Positions 30,895-64,000 of a stretch of 64,000 nt of DNA are shown here, one piece after another; position 1 is the first letter of the stretch, and each line of letters starts with the position of its first letter. Below the pieces are notes generated by a model. The model searched no databases. It was not told the origin of the DNA and saw only the letters and a list, made by a program, of their open reading frames with translations. Source of the DNA: Kalmusia sp. IMI 367209 (lineage: Eukaryota; Ascomycota; Dothideomycetes; Pleosporales; Didymosphaeriaceae); NCBI GenBank assembly GCA_027946365.1, contig JAPEUQ010000009.1:1302001-1366000 (forward strand), written 5' to 3'. Made by a program: the position numbers and the translations under genes.

Positions 30895-31995
30895 CTAGTA
30901 GTTGTACTTGTAGCACAGGAAGCCTCCAAGCGTGTTCATGATATCGCTGACCTTCAAGTTGGGCTGAAGGCTGTTAAGATAGATGGGGGTGTCCATGGTG
31001 AGGGGCACACCGTTGGGGCCGTTGCCGTCAATGTACTTGGTGCGTCCGGAGTCGTTGTTTTGCCAGATACGGAAATGACGGTCGACCATGCCGTGGTGCA
31101 GCCAGAAGATTGGGTCACCGGGGGAGGCATACACGTCGCGCATGACACCGCCGATGCCGTTGTGGCCGTAGGCGTGCGCACCCTGCTCGGCGCACCTGGC
31201 AAAGTCCTGGTAGTCAGTCAACGCCGTGCAGCCGTTGACAATGTTGGAGTTTGTGTTGGCCGTGTCGGCAGCGTTTCCATTACGGGCAAGGCAGTGGTAT
31301 GTGTTGCTTGTGCTGGGGCCGACGTTAAGGGCCAGGTTGGCGAATTGCTGGTGCATGTTAGCGAACTGTATTTCATATACGGCGAGTGTACTTACGCCAT
31401 TGGTAACGCAGTTTCCGCCCAAGTTGATGGCACCGAGCCATTGGTTGGAGAAGATGGAGGACTGCGAGAACCTTCCGGCATACTTGGTCTCATCGAACCA
31501 GGGAAGAGCGTCGGTGAAACCGCACTCGTCTTGCAGAACCTTCTCGAAGGCCCACAGGAAAGCGCGGTGCCATACGATAAACTTGCGGTTGTTGTGTACG
31601 TTATCGGTCACGGCCTGGTGGACCTGGACAAAGTCCTCGTAACGGTTCTTCGAGCCTGGGTAACCGCCCTTGGAAGCCTTGCCGAGCAAGCACTTGATAC
31701 CGTTTACAAAGTTTTGCTTGGTGGTGTCCGAGGTCTGGTGCCACTCCGTGCGGACCTTGGGGTTGGTGCACGTCGCGGCGGCAGCGAAGGTGCTGAATTG
31801 AGCCTCTGGCTGTGGGGGAGCAGTCTGGTTCAGGACCATCTCGGTGATGTCGGCGAGAGAGAGGGTGTGGATTTCCGTCGTCTCGAAAGCGGCCGGGTTG
31901 AGCTTCGGGGCACCCGTGGGGATGGGTTTGGACGGAATGGTGGCCGCCGACGCGCCTGCCGCGAGGGCCGCGGTGAAGAATGCGAACTTGGTCAT
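30895..31995 (-). CDS. Secreted tyrosinase / catechol oxidase-like type-3 copper enzyme
   Basis: Two exons, 31995-31396 and 31347-30895, encode 350 residues. The ATG at 31995 is preferred over one at 32031 because it starts a signal peptide (MTKFAFFTAALAAGASA). Copper-site motifs are present: for CuA, FVQVHQAV, NVHNNRKFIVWHRAFLWAFE; for CuB, HAYGHNGIGG and GDPIFWLHHGMVDRHFRIWQ. The short length and lack of a large C-terminal shielding domain match the short secreted fungal tyrosinases/catechol oxidases acting on phenols outside the cell. The 48-nt intron (31395-31348) has a perfect GTAAGT donor, CTAAC branch and CAG acceptor but is a multiple of three and free of stops. No other biosynthetic gene lies within 3 kb. 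Confidence 0.92.
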   Translation of the reverse strand: MTKFAFFTAALAAGASAATIPSKPIPTGAPKLNPAAFETTEIHTLSLADITEMVLNQTAPPQPEAQFSTFAAAATCTNPKVRTEWHQTSDTTKQNFVNGIKCLLGKASKGGYPGSKNRYEDFVQVHQAVTDNVHNNRKFIVWHRAFLWAFEKVLQDECGFTDALPWFDETKYAGRFSQSSIFSNQWLGAINLGGNCVTNGVSTLAVYEIQFANMHQQFANLALNVGPSTSNTYHCLARNGNAADTANTNSNIVNGCTALTDYQDFARCAEQGAHAYGHNGIGGVMRDVYASPGDPIFWLHHGMVDRHFRIWQNNDSGRTKYIDGNGPNGVPLTMDTPIYLNSLQPNLKVSDIMNTLGGFLCYKYNY

Positions 31996-34900
31996 GGTGT
32001 TCGACTTGGTCCTTGGTGTCCAGAAAACCATTGTCGGGTTGATTAAAAATTACCAACTGAATGGATTTTTAGCTTGGTAAACGAATGGCTGCAAGGAATT
32101 GCAAGGGCAGTGGACAAGAATACATGGAATGGGAACGAGGGGAATCTTATATCCATCCCAATTTCCTTTGCGCACTGCGATACGACGCTGGTCCATGCCA
32201 GCTCGCGAGTCCATTCCCCTCCGGTACCCCTAGTCGCGCGCGGGTCCCAAGCGCTGCGTATAAATTAGGCTTAGATCAGCAGCTTTCGATATTGGGGGCA
32301 TTGACGCCTACAACGCCACGGCCCATTGACGACCTGACACCGCATCGCGCTTGTCTTTGTTCGGCTGATGCGCGAGCAGGGGATGCGCTCAGCTCGCAGT
32401 GACTTGCACACTGGAAGCCCTACTAGCTAGGCTAGAATGGTTTACGGGTTGCCGGTTCCCGACTTTTGGGCCACCAAACCGTTCAGAGGATTTACTGTGG
32501 AGTCCCCTGTGCCGTCTGCTAATTGCAGGGTATGCACTGCCCCTTTCTCCGAAACGCAGCTCTCCGCTGCTTCTGGAAGAAGAAGTACTGAGGGCCGCTG
32601 CGGAAATAATTAACACCGTCAGCACACGTGTATGGCCTTTTGGTCATGTCATGGCTGGCGAGCGTCGCAAGATGCAATTTCTCAACACGACCGCGCTGAA
32701 GTCATAGCCTGCGAATCAGCTAAGGATTGGCGCAACGCTTGTGTCCTGCCGCCTCCAGTGCGAGTTGTGCCGATCCGACGATCGCCGACGGTGTTCATGT
32801 CCTGAAAAGAAGGCGTTGAGCAGGCGACGTTTGCAGCCTGGTCACGCCCTGGTCGGGGATGGTTGCTCAGTCCTCTCAACCCCATCACACCTCGTTCAAT
32901 TCACCCATACGAGCGGGTCAACAAAGAACATCTCCTCGCGTTGCTGACACAAGCTGCCTCATCCACAAGGCGGCCAATAGCGTCTCCACGCGTCAGTACA
33001 AGCTTTTCGCTCGGTCCTTCCAAAAATACATTTTTCGATCAGCTCACCACTAGTCTCCCCGAGGTATCCTGGAGTCGAAAAATGCAACGTCAAGAGTGAC
33101 TACACTTCAGGCCAATGCCACGCCGGCGAATTCAATAACATTTCCTAATATGGAGCGGTGCCGGTGTTGTAGTCTGCTGCAGCATGTGTAGCGTAGATCG
33201 CGAATGCACAAGGTGCGGGGTTGTGCCGAGTGACGTCGGTGAATTCTTGAGTAGACCTGCAGCCTAAGGCGGGCTGCAGATACGGTGATTGTGAGGTAAG
33301 AGGGTCATGAGGACGGCCCTGGTAGTTGTAGCGGTGAGTAGGTCGTTGGCGATGGCATGCGGTATGTTGCGCGCGCACAGCACGGTCTAGCTTCAGCCCA
33401 AGCGTGAAGGCGGTCGCGACAATGTCGCGCGCATGCAGTGAGGAGGGACACCGGAAGACTGGCTGGCCTTGTCATTGTTTACACAGGCAGAGACATCGCC
33501 AGGATACGGCCGCTACGATGCGCCAAGGTGGTTGTTCCCATGTCCCTCGTCATGCTTGGATCGTTCGATGGGCCGTCTTACTCGGGGCCGACTAGGTCTG
33601 TGATCGCCAAAATACCTCCTTTTCAGACCACCGGTCTCTCCAACAAAAGTCCCTTTCGTGTTCGATAATTGACGAGGACCCCGTTACATGGCCAATAAAG
33701 CTATTTGTGGCCTAAGTGACCTCGGCTTGTAGGCTCCGCCGAGTATGCCGAGTAACCGTAGTCAAGCAGTAGCATTGTTGGTTCGCATCGGTCGCTGGCC
33801 AGGGCCACTTCAACGACTAGTCGCGGCGGGGCTGATGCTGTGCCACCTGCGATTCGGTCATCAGCCGTGAGCCACAGCTACACTAGGTGGCGTTCAAGAT
33901 TTCTTCACGAATGCAGGGAAAGGCGCACAACATGCTCGAGGTCAGATGCGCTTCGGGAACCGGCGGTCTGCGTGAACGCGTTCGAAAGAGGCGAGGAGAT
34001 GCGAAGAATGGAGAGTTGGAGTATCGCTTATCGTAGCACGGTGAGTCTCGTTGGCAAGGCGCAAGGTCACGATTGTTGCGTCATGAACCGTCCCTACTCC
34101 ACTAAGGAGAGGAGGAAGGCGCAAAAAAAAAAAAAAAAAGCATCACAAGAGTCAATTGGCATCAAACCGAGCATATCCTCTGTCCATGGACATTCTGACG
34201 CCTCGATTCAGCTGCCTGCCAAACTTCTGGTTCATCATGCATCAAGTCACGTCTACAACAGACGGGAAAGCCAGCCGCCTCACCACGCCCCTTTGTCTCT
34301 CAGCAAAGCCATCTGACCTTCACCACCCTGTCAAATTGCAATAAATACTCACACAATTGAACACATCTCCACCACCACACACGATATCAGGTCAATCAAC
34401 GAGAACAAAGCTGAGCTCCACGCCATGCGCCCTCCCTCCAGACCCTCCCCTCCCCTCCCTCCTCAACCGCGCCATCCGACACCAAACTCCCACCAAAACC
34501 CACGCCCCAAACTCCATCCCTCCGTCGTCCTCCCCTTCCCAATAAGCCATCCACCCTCCACGTGTATCCCCGCCGGCCCCCTCTCTTCAAACCATCCCAT
34601 CCCAGCCCAGCCCAGCTTACCCCCGCCCTCAGCACCACGTCGCGCAAACCATGCAGCACCATTACACAGGGCTGAACCGCGCAGTCGCAGCATGCACGAC
34701 ATGCCACGGGATCTGCGCCCGCTCGCGGCGCCTCTGCCCCCCTTCGCTAGTGGGCATGCAGCCGCTTCGTGACGTGGGCGCCTCTCTGTGCGACAGGGTC
34801 TGCGGTAAGCGCGCACGCGACGTCGCACGAAGAGTTATCGGCGGGGCAGAGCGGTGGTGGGAGAAGAACAACCGGTGTGGGAGGCGGAGTGATGGTGGTG

Positions 34901-42439: not shown

Positions 42440-44878
42440 ATGCGCGTCGATTTGCTCCCCACTCTTGGGGTGGCACTGAGCCTCCAGGCAGCTGGAGCGC
42501 TTGGAAATGTCATCTGTGACTCCAATCCTGATGCTAACATGAAGAATGCCGCTGAAAAAGTCGAGTTCTGCCTGGAGCACTTCTGCGAAGCTCCGGGAAG
42601 CAATAGCCCAGCTGTGGCGCACTGCGGGGAGATTGTGTTCTCGGTCACCAATCTCGGTGCTGCACCAGCTGAGGCTGATTGTCTTGCGCAATTCAAATCT
42701 ATCCTTGGTGATTGTCTGACGGCCAAAGGTGTCCAGGGAGGTATTTCCCAGACCCCTGGGGCTTTGTACGAGATTCACGCGGCCGACAGTGAGGGTCGCG
42801 AAGTTCCAGACGAGGGCGAGCCAAAGGACGTAGACGAGGATGAAGATGATGAAGATGAAGGAGATGATGAAGAAGATGAAGACGATGAAGACGACGAAGA
42901 CGACGAAGACGAAGAAGACGAGGAAGATGAGGAAGAGGAGGAGGAGGAAGACTTTACGCCTGCAGGCAACGAGACTTCCTCAACTGAAAGGGAACACGTG
43001 GAGACCCGAGCTATTAGCATTGACGAGAACGAATTCGACAATGGGGATCTTCACGGTCTCTGGGATCATGAGGACTCGCCGCGATCTTTGGAGGTACGAC
43101 GTTCTCGAGGTGGACGAACCAGGAAGACCAGACCCAGGCCCACCAGGCCGAGGAAACACAAAACCCCGAAGAGACCCAAAACCCCGAAGAAACCCAAGAA
43201 ACCCAAGACTCCGAAGAAACCTAAGACTCCTAAATGCACGGCCGCGATGAAAAAGGCCGGCAAGTGCGGCAAAAAAACACCGCCCAAGTGCACGGCCGCG
43301 ATGAAGAGGGCTGGCAAGTGTGGCAACGCTACATGTTCGGCAGCAGTGAAGAGGAAGAACGGTGGCAAGTGCCCCCCTACGTGTTCAGCGGCAGTGAAGA
43401 GGAAGAATGGTGGTGTGTGCCCCGCTAAATGTTCAGCGGCAGTGAAGAGGAAGAACGGCGGTGTGTGCCCCGCTGTGTGTTCAGCAGCAGTGAAGAGGAA
43501 GAATGGCGGTGTCTGCCCCGCTAAGTGTTCTGCGGCAGTGAAGAGGAAGAATGGCGGCGTGTGCCCCCCTGTATGTTCAGCAGCGGTGAAGAGGAAGAAT
43601 GGCGGCGTGTGCCCCCCTGTATGTTCAGCGGCAGTGAAGAGGAAGAACGGCGGTGTGTGCCCCCCTACGTGTACCGCTGCAGAGAAGAAGGCCAACGGTG
43701 GGAAATGCCCTACGTGTACCGCTGCAGAAAAGAAGAAGAACGGTGGCAAATGCCCTCCAAAGGCTTGTCCCATGAAGAAGAAGCCAGGCACAGCCGGAGC
43801 AGGCGCAAAGAAGGGCGGCAAGAAATCGGTTCGTGATATCGTGGAAAGTCTTCTCCCCGAAGTCGTAGCTAGAGCAATCCTCCCTCGCACAAAACGCCCA
43901 GCCTCTCCAACCTCACCAGGAGGATCGCCCGGATCGCCAGGCTCACCAGGATCTCCAGGCTCACCTGCTGGCGCAGGAGGACAGGATGAATGCGGACCTG
44001 ACTATAGAGAATGGTTCAAGCCCAGGTTTCTCGATACGAAGACCAAGCATTGGATGTTCCAGAAAAGTTCTGGCTGGTCACACGGTCTCACCGAAGCCAT
44101 TAAAGCGAATCCAGGAGATGCAGCTCTGCCCGAAGCTAAAAAGGTTCTGGCGGCGATGACGGACCATGGTAAATTGGACGTCATCAGGGTAAAGAGGGGC
44201 AAGATTGAAGTCAAGGGTAAAGCATCGGGCGGGTCTCACCCTGAGGAATGGTTGACGGGAATGGGCAGCTATGTTCTCAGCAACGGTGGCTTCTACGTCA
44301 TGGACGGAGACAAACAGCCACCGATCGGAAAAGCTAGTCATACCGAGAACAAATATGCTATCCCGGAGGAATACATAAACAACTATCAGTACCTGGGGAG
44401 TAAAGCTTCAGGCAACTACTTCGCCACCGGGCCGAACCTCGATAGGGACTTGTCATTCTCCGAAGCCAAATGGCAGTATTGGGAAAATAAAGCAGAAGGC
44501 AAAAGAACTGAAGTTGCAAAGAAGCCCGGTAGCCTTGCGCACGCGAGAGAGCCCAACGAGCGCCTCGTCTACGTCGAGCTCGGAAACGGCGACAAATACC
44601 TCTTTGCGTACACTGCCGTATCCAGGAACAATGGCGTCGATCTCAACAAGATGAGGCATATTATCTTAGCGTTCCTAAAGGACATGCAGAAGATAACACA
44701 CCCCAAGACGATCCTTAACATGGATGGAGGAGGTAGTGTCTATGTGGCCTGGAAGCCTACAGGCAAGCCGTTCGAAGTAATCGCCAGAGGCGAGACGGGA
44801 GACGATATTCCTGGCACAGATGGCTTCCGGGATGGACACATTAGAGAAGTGACCAACTATCTTAGGCTTGATGGGTAG
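42440..44878 (+). CDS. Secreted modular protein: Cys-repeat array, collagen-like linker, phosphodiester-glycosidase-like domain
   Basis: Intronless, 812 residues. Modules in order: signal peptide (MRVDLLPTLGVALSLQAAGA); a Cys-containing domain (about 22-110); a nearly pure Asp/Glu stretch (about 130-172); a Lys/Pro-rich basic stretch (KTPKRPKTPKKPKKPKTPKK); eleven Cys-repeat units from residue 266 to about 440, seven of them CSAAVKRKNGG[KV]CP; a collagen-like GSPGSPGSPGSPGSP linker; and a C-terminal domain of about 290 residues. That last domain contains YVLSNGGFYVMDGDKQPPIG and ILNMDGGGSVYVAW (DGGGS near residue 762), which match the conserved core of NAGPA/DUF2233 phosphodiester glycosidases. 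Each CSAAVKRKNGG unit includes a Lys-Arg, a possible Kex2 site. Function unknown; sugar-phosphodiester cleavage outside the cell is an inference. Confidence 0.85.
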   Translation: MRVDLLPTLGVALSLQAAGALGNVICDSNPDANMKNAAEKVEFCLEHFCEAPGSNSPAVAHCGEIVFSVTNLGAAPAEADCLAQFKSILGDCLTAKGVQGGISQTPGALYEIHAADSEGREVPDEGEPKDVDEDEDDEDEGDDEEDEDDEDDEDDEDEEDEEDEEEEEEEDFTPAGNETSSTEREHVETRAISIDENEFDNGDLHGLWDHEDSPRSLEVRRSRGGRTRKTRPRPTRPRKHKTPKRPKTPKKPKKPKTPKKPKTPKCTAAMKKAGKCGKKTPPKCTAAMKRAGKCGNATCSAAVKRKNGGKCPPTCSAAVKRKNGGVCPAKCSAAVKRKNGGVCPAVCSAAVKRKNGGVCPAKCSAAVKRKNGGVCPPVCSAAVKRKNGGVCPPVCSAAVKRKNGGVCPPTCTAAEKKANGGKCPTCTAAEKKKNGGKCPPKACPMKKKPGTAGAGAKKGGKKSVRDIVESLLPEVVARAILPRTKRPASPTSPGGSPGSPGSPGSPGSPAGAGGQDECGPDYREWFKPRFLDTKTKHWMFQKSSGWSHGLTEAIKANPGDAALPEAKKVLAAMTDHGKLDVIRVKRGKIEVKGKASGGSHPEEWLTGMGSYVLSNGGFYVMDGDKQPPIGKASHTENKYAIPEEYINNYQYLGSKASGNYFATGPNLDRDLSFSEAKWQYWENKAEGKRTEVAKKPGSLAHAREPNERLVYVELGNGDKYLFAYTAVSRNNGVDLNKMRHIILAFLKDMQKITHPKTILNMDGGGSVYVAWKPTGKPFEVIARGETGDDIPGTDGFRDGHIREVTNYLRLDG
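43235..43760 (+). repeat. Tandem ~48-bp coding repeats (Cys-repeat array)
   Basis: Eleven in-frame units, the central seven about 48 bp long and nearly identical, each encoding a CSAAVKRKNGGVCPP-like peptide. High DNA identity between units suggests recent expansion. The antisense strand is also open across the array. Confidence 0.85.
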
Positions 44879-61416: not shown

Positions 61417-61938
61417 CTAGTTTTTCAAGCCGCCAGTGTAGTATAGAGGAGCATAGGTGGCTGCCTCAGCATCCGCCTTAGCATCCCTCTTTAAGCCGCC
61501 GGTGTAGACCAGAGGAGCATATGTAGCTGCTGCCTCAGGGTCGGCCTCAGCATCGGCCTCGGGCTTAGCTTCCCTCTTAACCTCCCTCTTCAAGCCGCCA
61601 GTGTAGACGAGAGGAGCATAGGTGGCAGCGGCCTTAGGGTCAGCCTCAGCATCGGCCTCCCTCTTCAGCCCGCCAGTGTAGACGAGAGGAGCATAGGTGG
61701 CGGCGGCCTCAGGGTCGGCATCTTTCTTCTTCAAGCCGCCGGTGTAGTACAGAGGAGCATAAGTAGCAGCGTTCACCTCCTCTTTCGGGGCGGCGTCCTT
61801 CTTCTCGAGCTTTTTACGATCAGTATTACTTTAGAAGGACACAGGTAATATATGCTGTTGTATGAGAAGTGTACTTACCGGAGTCGGAAGAGCAGATGCC
61901 ACAGAGGCGAGGCCGGCAATCAACACAGAGACCTTCAT
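61417..61938 (-). CDS. Putative RiPP (dikaritin-type) precursor peptide with five core repeats
   Basis: Two exons, 61938-61879 and 61809-61417, encode 150 residues; the 69-nt intron follows the signal-peptide exon. The signal peptide is MKVSVLIAGLASVASA. After a short pro-region (LEKKDAAPKEEV) come five copies of A-[TA]-T-Y-A-P-L-[VY]-Y-T-G-G-L-K-x. The three central copies have core YAPLVYTGG; the first and last have YAPLYYTGG. Copies are followed by KK, KR, KR, KR and a final KN-stop. The linkers are acidic, Ala-rich and variable (such as EADAEADPKAA). This is the architecture of precursors in ustiloxin-, asperipin- and victorin-type pathways: secretory leader, repeated Tyr-containing cores and Kex2-type sites. 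The divergent neighbour is a UstYa-family gene, which supports the assignment. Product structure and activity are unknown. Confidence 0.85.
61420..61773 (-). repeat. Five imperfect coding repeats of the RiPP core
   Basis: Each unit has a conserved ~45-bp part encoding ATYAPL[VY]YTGGLK, separated by linkers of variable length. Conserved parts are nearly identical at DNA level while linkers differ in length, suggesting expansion and selection on the core. Confidence 0.85.
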
Positions 61939-62975
61939 TACGACGTTGGGGGCTGGGCTGTAGGCTTCTCGGAGACGACACCGGGGCTATGGTAATGGTC
62001 GGATGATATTCAGTACTTCTTTTATATGTGTAGGAAGACTCAGGCATGAACCAAGACCTTGGAAATGCTGCTAAACTTGATGCCACACTTGCTGCAGATA
62101 TCGCGTGTTCTTCGCACGAGACAAGAGGATTCCGGAGACCTCCATGCGGAAGGTGAGTCTGTCAAAAACTACTGGCAGGTTGTTGGTGGGTGGTGATCAA
62201 AGGACTACTGGTCAGTGCAGCCGCGTGTGGTGGCCACCTTCCTAGAGCTCTGCTGTCATCATCGTATCTACAGGACCAGGACTTCGATCGGACCTGATGT
62301 GCAACAAGGAATGGAGTGTGAACCGAGATACTATCCATCACGAAGGGCCGATAGCCTGGTTCACGCGGTGTGGGAGAAGCATAGCCAGCTAAGAGGCAAA
62401 GTAGTTGATTGTTACACTAGTACTTCCACCAATCAATCGTGGAGCTTCGAGAGCCCACTCGGTGATGGTATAGTAGAAAGATTCGCGTGATGTCTATCTC
62501 CCTCGTTCATGCGGCCGTGGTATACGGACTATTATAGATATGACGGTACAAAACCACGCAAATTGATTATTGACGTAGTTTCGTTGCCGCTAGTCGAGAC
62601 TTCGGGCCAACATCGATTGCCGGATAAGGAAGGTGAATCGCCTGCCGAGCCTATACGAGGCTATCTCGATCCTACGCCCAGGAAGCCTTGAACGATTGAC
62701 GCGAGCCGCTTCCCTGGAATGGTCAATAGAAACTGGCGAAGGATTTTCGGTTGCAGTCGGGTTTACTGATAGATAGAACTTTTAAATGTATAGATATCAC
62801 TCGCACGATAAGCTTTGAGAAGCCTTGACCATACCCGTAGGCTGCTCACATACCCGGCCGAGGCTACAGCGGCTCTATAGGCCCTGCAAGGCTTGCCTAA
62901 AGCCCACTGACATAGGCAGCGGGGGTCATTCTTCCTCTACTCCTGGCTCTCTTCCCCTCACAGCCCATAGGAAAT
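61939..62975. promoter_or_regulatory. Divergent intergenic region between precursor and UstYa genes
   Basis: About 1.04 kb separates the two start codons. It contains no convincing gene and is likely to hold the regulatory sites for both. Confidence 0.5.
62020..62026 (-). promoter_or_regulatory. TATA box of the RiPP precursor gene
   Basis: TATAAAA on the minus strand, 82-88 bp upstream of the precursor ATG at 61938, within CATATAAAAGAAG. A strong TATA element at this distance is consistent with an inducible, highly expressed small secreted peptide gene. Confidence 0.5.
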
Positions 62976-64000
62976 ATGTCGTACAGCGACTCTATAGACG
63001 AGCGCGCGACTTTCCTCGACGAAGAGAAATGCAAGAACAGCCCAGATAAACGGGCCTTATCTCCACGGTCATTTAAGCTCCTCACCATATGCAACATAGT
63101 ATTTTTCCTAGCCTCGTTGTCACTGTATAGTTCGTCATGGCTCCAACACTCCGCCACTAAGAGACCCAACGCAAAGCTTCGACAAGTTCACTCATACTGT
63201 AAGATCCAAATGTCATCCTTCCAACCACTTTTCGCTCACATCCGCAGCTCCTCTTCTCGATGCTGTTGATCTCCCATTGGAAGTAAAAGCTTTAAATGGC
63301 ACATTATACCCCAACCATCACCCTTCAGTCGCACGCGGCCCGCCCAGTCCCGAAGCAGACGCCATATGGAACGAATGGGAAATTACACGAGTCTACGCTA
63401 TCACCGCCGACCAAATTCGCGCCATGGGCAAAGACCCTTCGACAGCCACAAAACTAGAAGTATGTTCTCCTCTGGGTCTAAAGCATCTCAACACATGCGC
63501 TGACTTAATTAGGATGACATCTACGGTCTTGGGGACGACGCATACGCATCCACATTCGACATCTACCACCAACTCCACTGCCTGAACATGCTGCGAAAAC
63601 TCGTCTACCCGGACTACTACAAGAACGCGCGGATGCAGTTCCCGCACGCCAAGGACCCGCAAGCTATGTATGAAATTCATATGGGCCACTGCATCGACAT
63701 GTTGATGCAGACGATCCAATGCAGCGGAAACCTTAACCTCATCACCATGCATTGGGTCAACGAAGAAGCTATTCCCTTTCCGGACATGAGCATTAACAAG
63801 CAATGTGTTGCTGATTTCGACTACTTGACTAAGTGGCGGAAGGAACATCAGGTCGACCCGGAGAAATATGTCGCGATGAGTACGTTGTATTCTTCTGAAT
63901 TAATGTGGGGAATGTACTGACGGGGCCGTCCCTAGAGAAACCTGCTGGCGTAAAGCAGTTGCCGGAAGCGGATATGTGGTACAAGTATTTCCGGCCGGAT
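62976..64000 (+). CDS. UstYa-family (DUF3328) oxidase-like protein, 3' end at window edge
   Basis: Exons 62976-63198, 63248-63459, 63513-63879 and 63936-beyond 64000; introns are 49, 53 and 56 nt. 289 residues are visible. An N-terminal cytoplasmic stretch precedes one membrane helix (LLTICNIVFFLASLSLYSSSW), then the luminal DUF3328 domain. Both signature HxxHC motifs are present: YHQLHC (His164, His167, Cys168) and HMGHC (His201, His204, Cys205). Other family marks are DDIYGLGDDAYASTFDIYHQLHCLNMLRK and ITMHWVNEEAIPFPDMSINKQCVADFD. In ustiloxin, asperipin and related pathways, UstYa proteins are needed for oxidative cyclisation of Tyr-containing core peptides. The adjacent Tyr-repeat precursor makes the same role likely here. 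The coding region is close to its usual end, so little is missing. Confidence 0.93.

Follow-up and report, generated by a model that had tools for sequence, protein, structure and literature searches.

The right end of the DNA analysed here, a window of 64,000 nucleotides at C30:1302001-1366000 from the endophyte cf. Kalmusia sp. IMI 367209 (Didymosphaeriaceae; published assembly of 30 contigs and 42.78 Mb, PMC10027605), raises the question of whether a secreted repeat precursor divergent to a UstYa/DUF3328 gene marks the edge of a dikaritin-type cluster, as the initial annotation proposed, or a locus of only two genes, and what kind of peptide such a pair might make. The repeat precursor and its partner, N0V90_008778, constitute a correctly observed locus of this fungus.

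The precursor gene (61417..61938, minus strand) encodes 150 aa in two exons (61938-61879 and 61809-61417) separated by a 69-nt GT..AG intron (61878-61810), a splicing of the ORF that we chose among several possible ones. Its product carries five TYAPL[V/Y]YTGGL units, two with YY and three with VY, between dibasic KK/KR sites. A genome pattern search placed their cores, all on the minus strand, at 61736..61761 (core 1, YAPLYYTGG), 61670..61695, 61595..61620 and 61496..61521 (cores 2, 3 and 4, YAPLVYTGG) and 61430..61455 (core 5, YAPLYYTGG, followed by LKN and the stop codon), unit 5 terminating in KN-stop without a dibasic site. An N-terminal hydrophobic stretch, identified from hydropathy and by eye rather than with SignalP, forms a putative signal peptide, and the Tyr-rich repeats, KR/KK sites and signal peptide initially annotated on a 150-residue precursor were thus all found in the two-exon gene. 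Each core holds two to three Tyr, as is typical of dikaritin cores. Kex2-processed repeat proteins (KEPs) have been defined by a signal peptide and three or more repeats, each 8 aa or longer and set between Kex2 sites (Umemura 2020, PMC7329392), a definition that the precursor matches with its signal peptide and five units when it is applied directly rather than through the published pipeline. Differences among the repeats are mostly silent, and pN/pS over the 10 repeat pairs inside the core is 0.12, a value that is low in part because the compared stretch was selected for its conservation. The core is kept at the protein level.

N0V90_008778 (62976..64000 and beyond, plus strand), delimited by its PF11807 match and by splicing, encodes 307 aa in four exons (62976-63198, 63248-63459, 63513-63879, and a last one that starts at 63936 and runs out of the window, its stop codon ending 57 bases after position 64000), and the gene is intact. 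The spliced protein is identical (100%, full length, 307 aa) to the public N0V90_008778 record (P0002). Its PF11807 match (E 2.2e-52, 178.5 bits against a cut-off of 25) and its HQLHC and HMGHC motifs, at 164 and 201, bear out the annotated divergent UstYa gene with two HxxHC motifs, the six motif residues being conserved in 41 to 44 of 44 aligned homologues. The predicted structure (mean pLDDT 80, pTM 0.70) contains a long hydrophobic helix at 30-62, judging from which the protein may be membrane-anchored. It offered no functional lead, and searches of the PDB returned no meaningful relative by sequence (best E 0.7) or by fold (17 matches, best E 2.2).

Precursor (minus strand) and N0V90_008778 (plus strand) lie head-to-head on either side of a 1,037-bp intergenic region (61939..62975), the presumed site of both promoters, a proximity characteristic of dikaritin gene pairs. 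DUF3328 genes have been reported to be commonest directly beside KEP genes, with 1,758 KEP genes having a DUF3328 gene among their 15 nearest genes, mostly next door (Umemura 2020, PMC7329392).

To the right of position 64000, the 50 listed ORFs of at least 110 aa across about 36 kb yielded 15 Pfam families, including sugar transporter, SDR, CoA-transferase, transcription factor and acyl-CoA dehydrogenase, and no further UstYa, methyltransferase, peptidase, tyrosinase or P450. To the left, all 66 of 66 ORFs of at least 110 aa between 25000 and 61416 gave 14 families, among them HET, RING, FAD-binding, SDR, MFS/sugar transporter, amino acid permease and tyrosinase, and no UstYa, methyltransferase, peptidase or P450; both scans would let pass multi-exon genes with all exons below 110 aa. 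A HET gene is the direct left neighbor of the precursor, the nearest tyrosinase (30895-32031, by Pfam) lies 29 kb off, and the only other PF11807 match on the contig (C30), from a genome-wide profile search, is 1.34 Mb away. The initial annotation had looked to the sequence beyond the edge for more UstYa genes, methyltransferases and peptidases and had named their absence as evidence against its proposal; within the DNA scanned, they are absent. What stands of that proposal is a precursor/UstYa pair resembling those of ustiloxin and asperipin, and what does not is the cluster, since no further cluster genes were found on either side: within the DNA scanned, the window pair reads as a two-gene locus and not as a cluster edge. 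The phomopsin-type set of S41 peptidase, methyltransferase and tyrosinase is not present around it and, by comparison with an asperipin-like minimum, would not be required.

A second precursor/UstYa pair was identified on another contig, C29. Its precursor (P0001, 125 aa, minus strand, ATG at C29:1387806) has the core TYAPLWYVGGL, and its UstYa gene (L019, plus strand, ATG at C29:1388864) lies head-to-head with it across a gap of 1,057 bp, against 1,037 bp in the window pair; the C29 UstYa protein is our own provisional reading, with the first exon junction and start chosen by us. P0001 (locus L002) comprises two unit types, an outer pair SYVR..VPLGFKIN and an inner pair TYAPLWYVGGL. The pattern YAPLxYxGG occurs seven times in the 42.8-Mb genome, always within these two precursors, and a reversed-pattern control gave no occurrence; pN/pS between the cores of the two precursors is 0.23. 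Around the C29 pair, the 68 listed ORFs of at least 120 aa in 40 kb include no dikaritin gene besides its own UstYa, the families found being Med18, chorismate synthase, Nup133, DRE2, PNK3P, a transcription factor domain and two others. The chance of a given gene lying within 1.5 kb of a UstYa gene is roughly 0.4 to 0.5%, and that of both precursors doing so 1 to 2e-5 if the two cases are assumed to be independent. A promoter motif shared by the two pairs was sought and discarded, as only two 10-bp matches were obtained at chance level (E 0.8).

The spacers of the window precursor display a further regularity. After the dibasic sites, units 2, 3, 4 and 5 open with 4, 6, 8 and 4 in-phase XA/XP dipeptides, which fill the spacers apart from one further Ala in unit 5, and unit 1 shows a partial ladder (2 of 5 dipeptides). 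The resulting 24 in-phase dipeptides compare with 5.2 expected, and none of 20,000 shuffles reached as high a count. For this count we set the spacer limits ourselves and disregarded the two residues enclosed by a pair of KR sites ahead of unit 4. The ladder is partly kept in P0001, with 0/6, 2/5 and 5/7 in-phase dipeptides. The window precursor therefore presents the Ste13 ladder of alpha-pheromone precursors in full in units 2 to 5 and in part in unit 1. Such ladders have been described as generally dedicated to alpha-pheromones in the Ascomycota, and Le Marquer et al. (2019, PMC6339444) do not predict Ste13 processing for the precursors of ustiloxin and phomopsin. The combination of ladder and DUF3328 gene is nonetheless not without precedent: an ascomycete pheromone-like KEP, from Rutstroemia, has been reported to lie two genes from a DUF3328 gene, and such a gene also accompanies 17 of the 76 KEPs that are homologs of putative basidiomycete pheromones.

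The UstYa partners of the two pairs share 27% identity over 248 aligned residues. In a first tree, built from 16 of the 120 listed homologues and 14 of the 30 loci of this genome (the latter as joined matched segments, five own-or-duplicate loci and eleven under the length cut being left out), the window enzyme shared a clade (100/99) with L040 of this genome and with homologues belonging to other families and classes, and the C29 enzyme grouped with L014 and L027, also of this genome (99/96; 98/96 in a second tree). In the second tree, whose 16 rows were chosen after the first and in which long branches remain, the wider clade of the window enzyme received 88/97, and the grouping of the C29 partner with L014 alone was weak (67/36). 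On these rows, a topology uniting the C29 enzyme with the window enzyme and the latter's three closest homologues was rejected by an AU test (p 3.1e-5). Given this result and the low identity, the partners are not sisters, so that near-identical cores adjoin putative cyclases of different clades. L040, in turn, has a different repeat precursor of TEFAPWYRATNILPASD units about 1 kb away in divergent orientation. In these few cases, then, similar cores are found beside enzymes of different clades, and a single clade is paired with unlike cores. A precursor sought beside L014 was set aside, with no Kex2 repeats seen by eye in L014 or about 3 kb on each side.

Relatives of the window precursor at E 0.01 or better were limited to P0001 among 5.8 billion proteins, in a search whose short-word prefilter can let distant relatives escape. 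Since the window precursor was itself absent from the public proteins returned, with only P0001 appearing, it may be unannotated. Below this threshold, a metagenomic protein of 75 aa (P0122, E 0.16) ends in EEADAEADVEAASYAPLVYTGGLKN, with 11/11 residues of YAPLVYTGGLK and the final N-stop identical, and is probably a real relative as judged from this match; two other weak hits (P0123 and P0124) have in common only a Glu/Asp-Ala ladder. UstYa homologues are plentiful, with 140 proteins at E 0.001. Among the 120 listed, DPSP01_007633 of Paraphaeosphaeria sporulosa is 79% identical to N0V90_008778, SLS60_008738 of Paraconiothyrium brasiliense 87% identical over 77% of it, and relatives at about 50% come from the Xylariales, Apiospora and others. 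The core strings were not found in the open-access full texts searched, which agrees with the earlier remark that the core is unlike known ones, and the main text of PMC7329392 does not name Kalmusia.

Repeat precursors beside UstYa genes are not confined to these two loci. A genome-wide PF11807 search gave 102 exon-wise matches at E 0.001, which inspection by eye resolved into some 53 loci, and the best 30 of these were scanned with about 1.5-kb flanks (L013/L035, L024/L033 and L036/L038 overlap). Repeat candidates were detected at 9 of the 30 UstYa loci against 2 of 32 control tiles under a lax threshold, and at 5/30 against 1/32 under a strict one, window locus included; without it, the counts are 8/29 and 4/29. 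Control tiles were taken within the window and beside either pair rather than at random places, the L035 hit looks spurious, and L019 was not counted as a hit, the precursor repeats lying beyond the end of its scanned flank. The window pair is hence one of several repeat precursor/UstYa pairs in the genome. Kex2-type candidates lie at L025:1-300 (minus), L017:151-537 (minus), L040:3043-3465 (plus) and L039:3184-3450 (plus), with the other cores DEGFSKIIY, PIGQFISIWYGEDGDD, EFAPWYRATNILPASD and PVPPLWDGGVE. A UstYa-linked repeat fragment at L011:2-172 (minus) has EA-EA-NP or DA-EA-NP spacers before its core, a possible Ste13 ladder, and short secreted-looking ORFs with partial repeats adjoin UstYa genes at L022:2-304 (minus) and L018:3205-3525 (plus). 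The single strict control hit is apparently an 812-aa ORF of the window (42440-44878, plus strand) with an acidic stretch, repeated CSAAVKRKNGG units and no Pfam match. For comparison, nine dikaritin clusters have been reported in Venturia inaequalis alone (PMC9632046).

The most likely reading of these data, and one in which sequence evidence gives us good confidence, is that the pair forms a two-gene ribosomal-peptide module. The precursor would enter the secretory pathway and be cut by Kex2 after KR/KK, a Ste13-like dipeptidyl aminopeptidase would trim the XA/XP ladder, Kex1 would remove the basic residues from the released unit, and the UstYa protein would oxidatively cross-link a Tyr in TYAPL[V/Y]YTGGL, or in a closely similar trimming product, to yield a cyclic, secreted peptide. 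With no peptidase gene found in the DNA scanned around the pair, the trimming steps would fall to housekeeping enzymes; the genome contains one Kex2-type P-domain match, on contig C11 and hence not beside the pair as kexB is in the epichloecyclin cluster, and three DPPIV_N matches, of which two are strong. The epichloecyclins offer a likeness in their core, which ends in PYTG. Epichloecyclins, cyclic 8-9-mers made from gigA in Epichloe endophytes, resemble the present case in their endophytic producer, repeat precursor and DUF3328 neighbor, and differ in that gigA sits in a four-gene cluster with kexB (PMC7317419, PMC9233826). The asperipin-2a pathway of Aspergillus flavus (aprA, aprY, aprT, aprR) is likewise a small locus with one UstYa, a repeat precursor and a Tyr-rich core with a YTG element (FYYTGY), and the single UstYa homologue AprY is essential for it, indicating that one UstYa protein can suffice (PMC6514808); TYAPL[V/Y]YTGGL is longer and different, and here a transporter and reductase are not directly adjacent. 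Ustiloxin, phomopsin and victorin share the signal peptide, Kex2 repeats and UstYa-family proteins, whereas at the window pair no peptidase, methyltransferase or adjacent tyrosinase was found and the spacers carry the Ste13 ladder. Not every core relies on Tyr, as ring closure in victorin has been reported to involve Phe (PMC9233826). Against the module stands the breadth of the UstYa family, whose members can act in hydroxylation or chlorination and are also encountered outside RiPP biosynthesis (PMC12048977). The lack of another tailoring gene in the DNA scanned and the incomplete ladder of P0001 and of unit 1 likewise count against it.

The ladder, which places a Kex2 site and XA/XP dipeptides before most repeats just as in ascomycete alpha-pheromone precursors, would also suit a linear pheromone-like or hormone peptide, with Kex2, Ste13 and Kex1 releasing unmodified TYAPLVYTGGL and the UstYa gene being incidental. 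A canonical pheromone gene was not found elsewhere in the genome with the patterns used: PYG[LM]P[IV]G gave no hits, PYGxPxGK one, whose frame stays open for fewer than 40 aa, and CxxxGQPCW one, in single copy within a 123-aa ORF antisense to a 317-aa ORF. This outcome is among the points in favor of the pheromone interpretation, whose standing is lowered rather than removed. We nevertheless consider it unlikely, as the core has neither Dothideomycete pheromone motif (PYGxPxG or two Cys) and contains two to three Tyr, a UstYa gene adjoins the precursor at two of two loci with non-sister enzymes, and in one survey only 3 of 216 putative fungal pheromones lay near a DUF3328 gene, at 15, 12 and 2 genes.

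That the pair belongs to a larger dikaritin pathway with distant or unlinked genes is quite improbable. Tyrosinase and FAD-binding genes do occur to its left, and a sugar transporter (L004:513-1410 and beyond) and an SDR (L004:2325-3130), both assigned by Pfam, lie about 6-9 kb to the right of N0V90_008778, recalling the transporter and reductase used by asperipin-2a (PMC6514808). Yet other genes stand between the tyrosinase and the pair, a long gene region without Pfam match (L003:5752-9251) separates the UstYa gene from the transporter, and the C29 pair sits amid Med18, DRE2, chorismate synthase and Nup133 without such neighbors. A relic or chance neighborhood, in which the repeat protein would be structural or an effector, could account for the near absence of precursor relatives beyond P0001, but is highly improbable when both genes are intact, pN/pS is low, a second pair exists and P0122 shares the core and KN-stop.

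The two-gene module thus remains our preferred interpretation, and the window pair is a further example of a well-known fungal peptide-factory type with an apparently new core. An antimicrobial or host-signalling role of the peptide in the endophyte would be a guess. It is a tentative and rather doubtful proposition that core and cyclase evolve apart, as TYAPLxYxGGLK lying twice head-to-head with different UstYa clades might suggest, and that the Ste13-ladder precursor represents a living pheromone/dikaritin intermediate. If the ladder is used, it would be relevant to the published question of a possible origin of cyclic fungal RiPPs in genes for mating pheromones (PMC7329392, PMC9233826). As a minimal natural substrate-enzyme pair with a second pair of near-identical core and different enzyme, the locus would allow a partner comparison of UstYa recognition.
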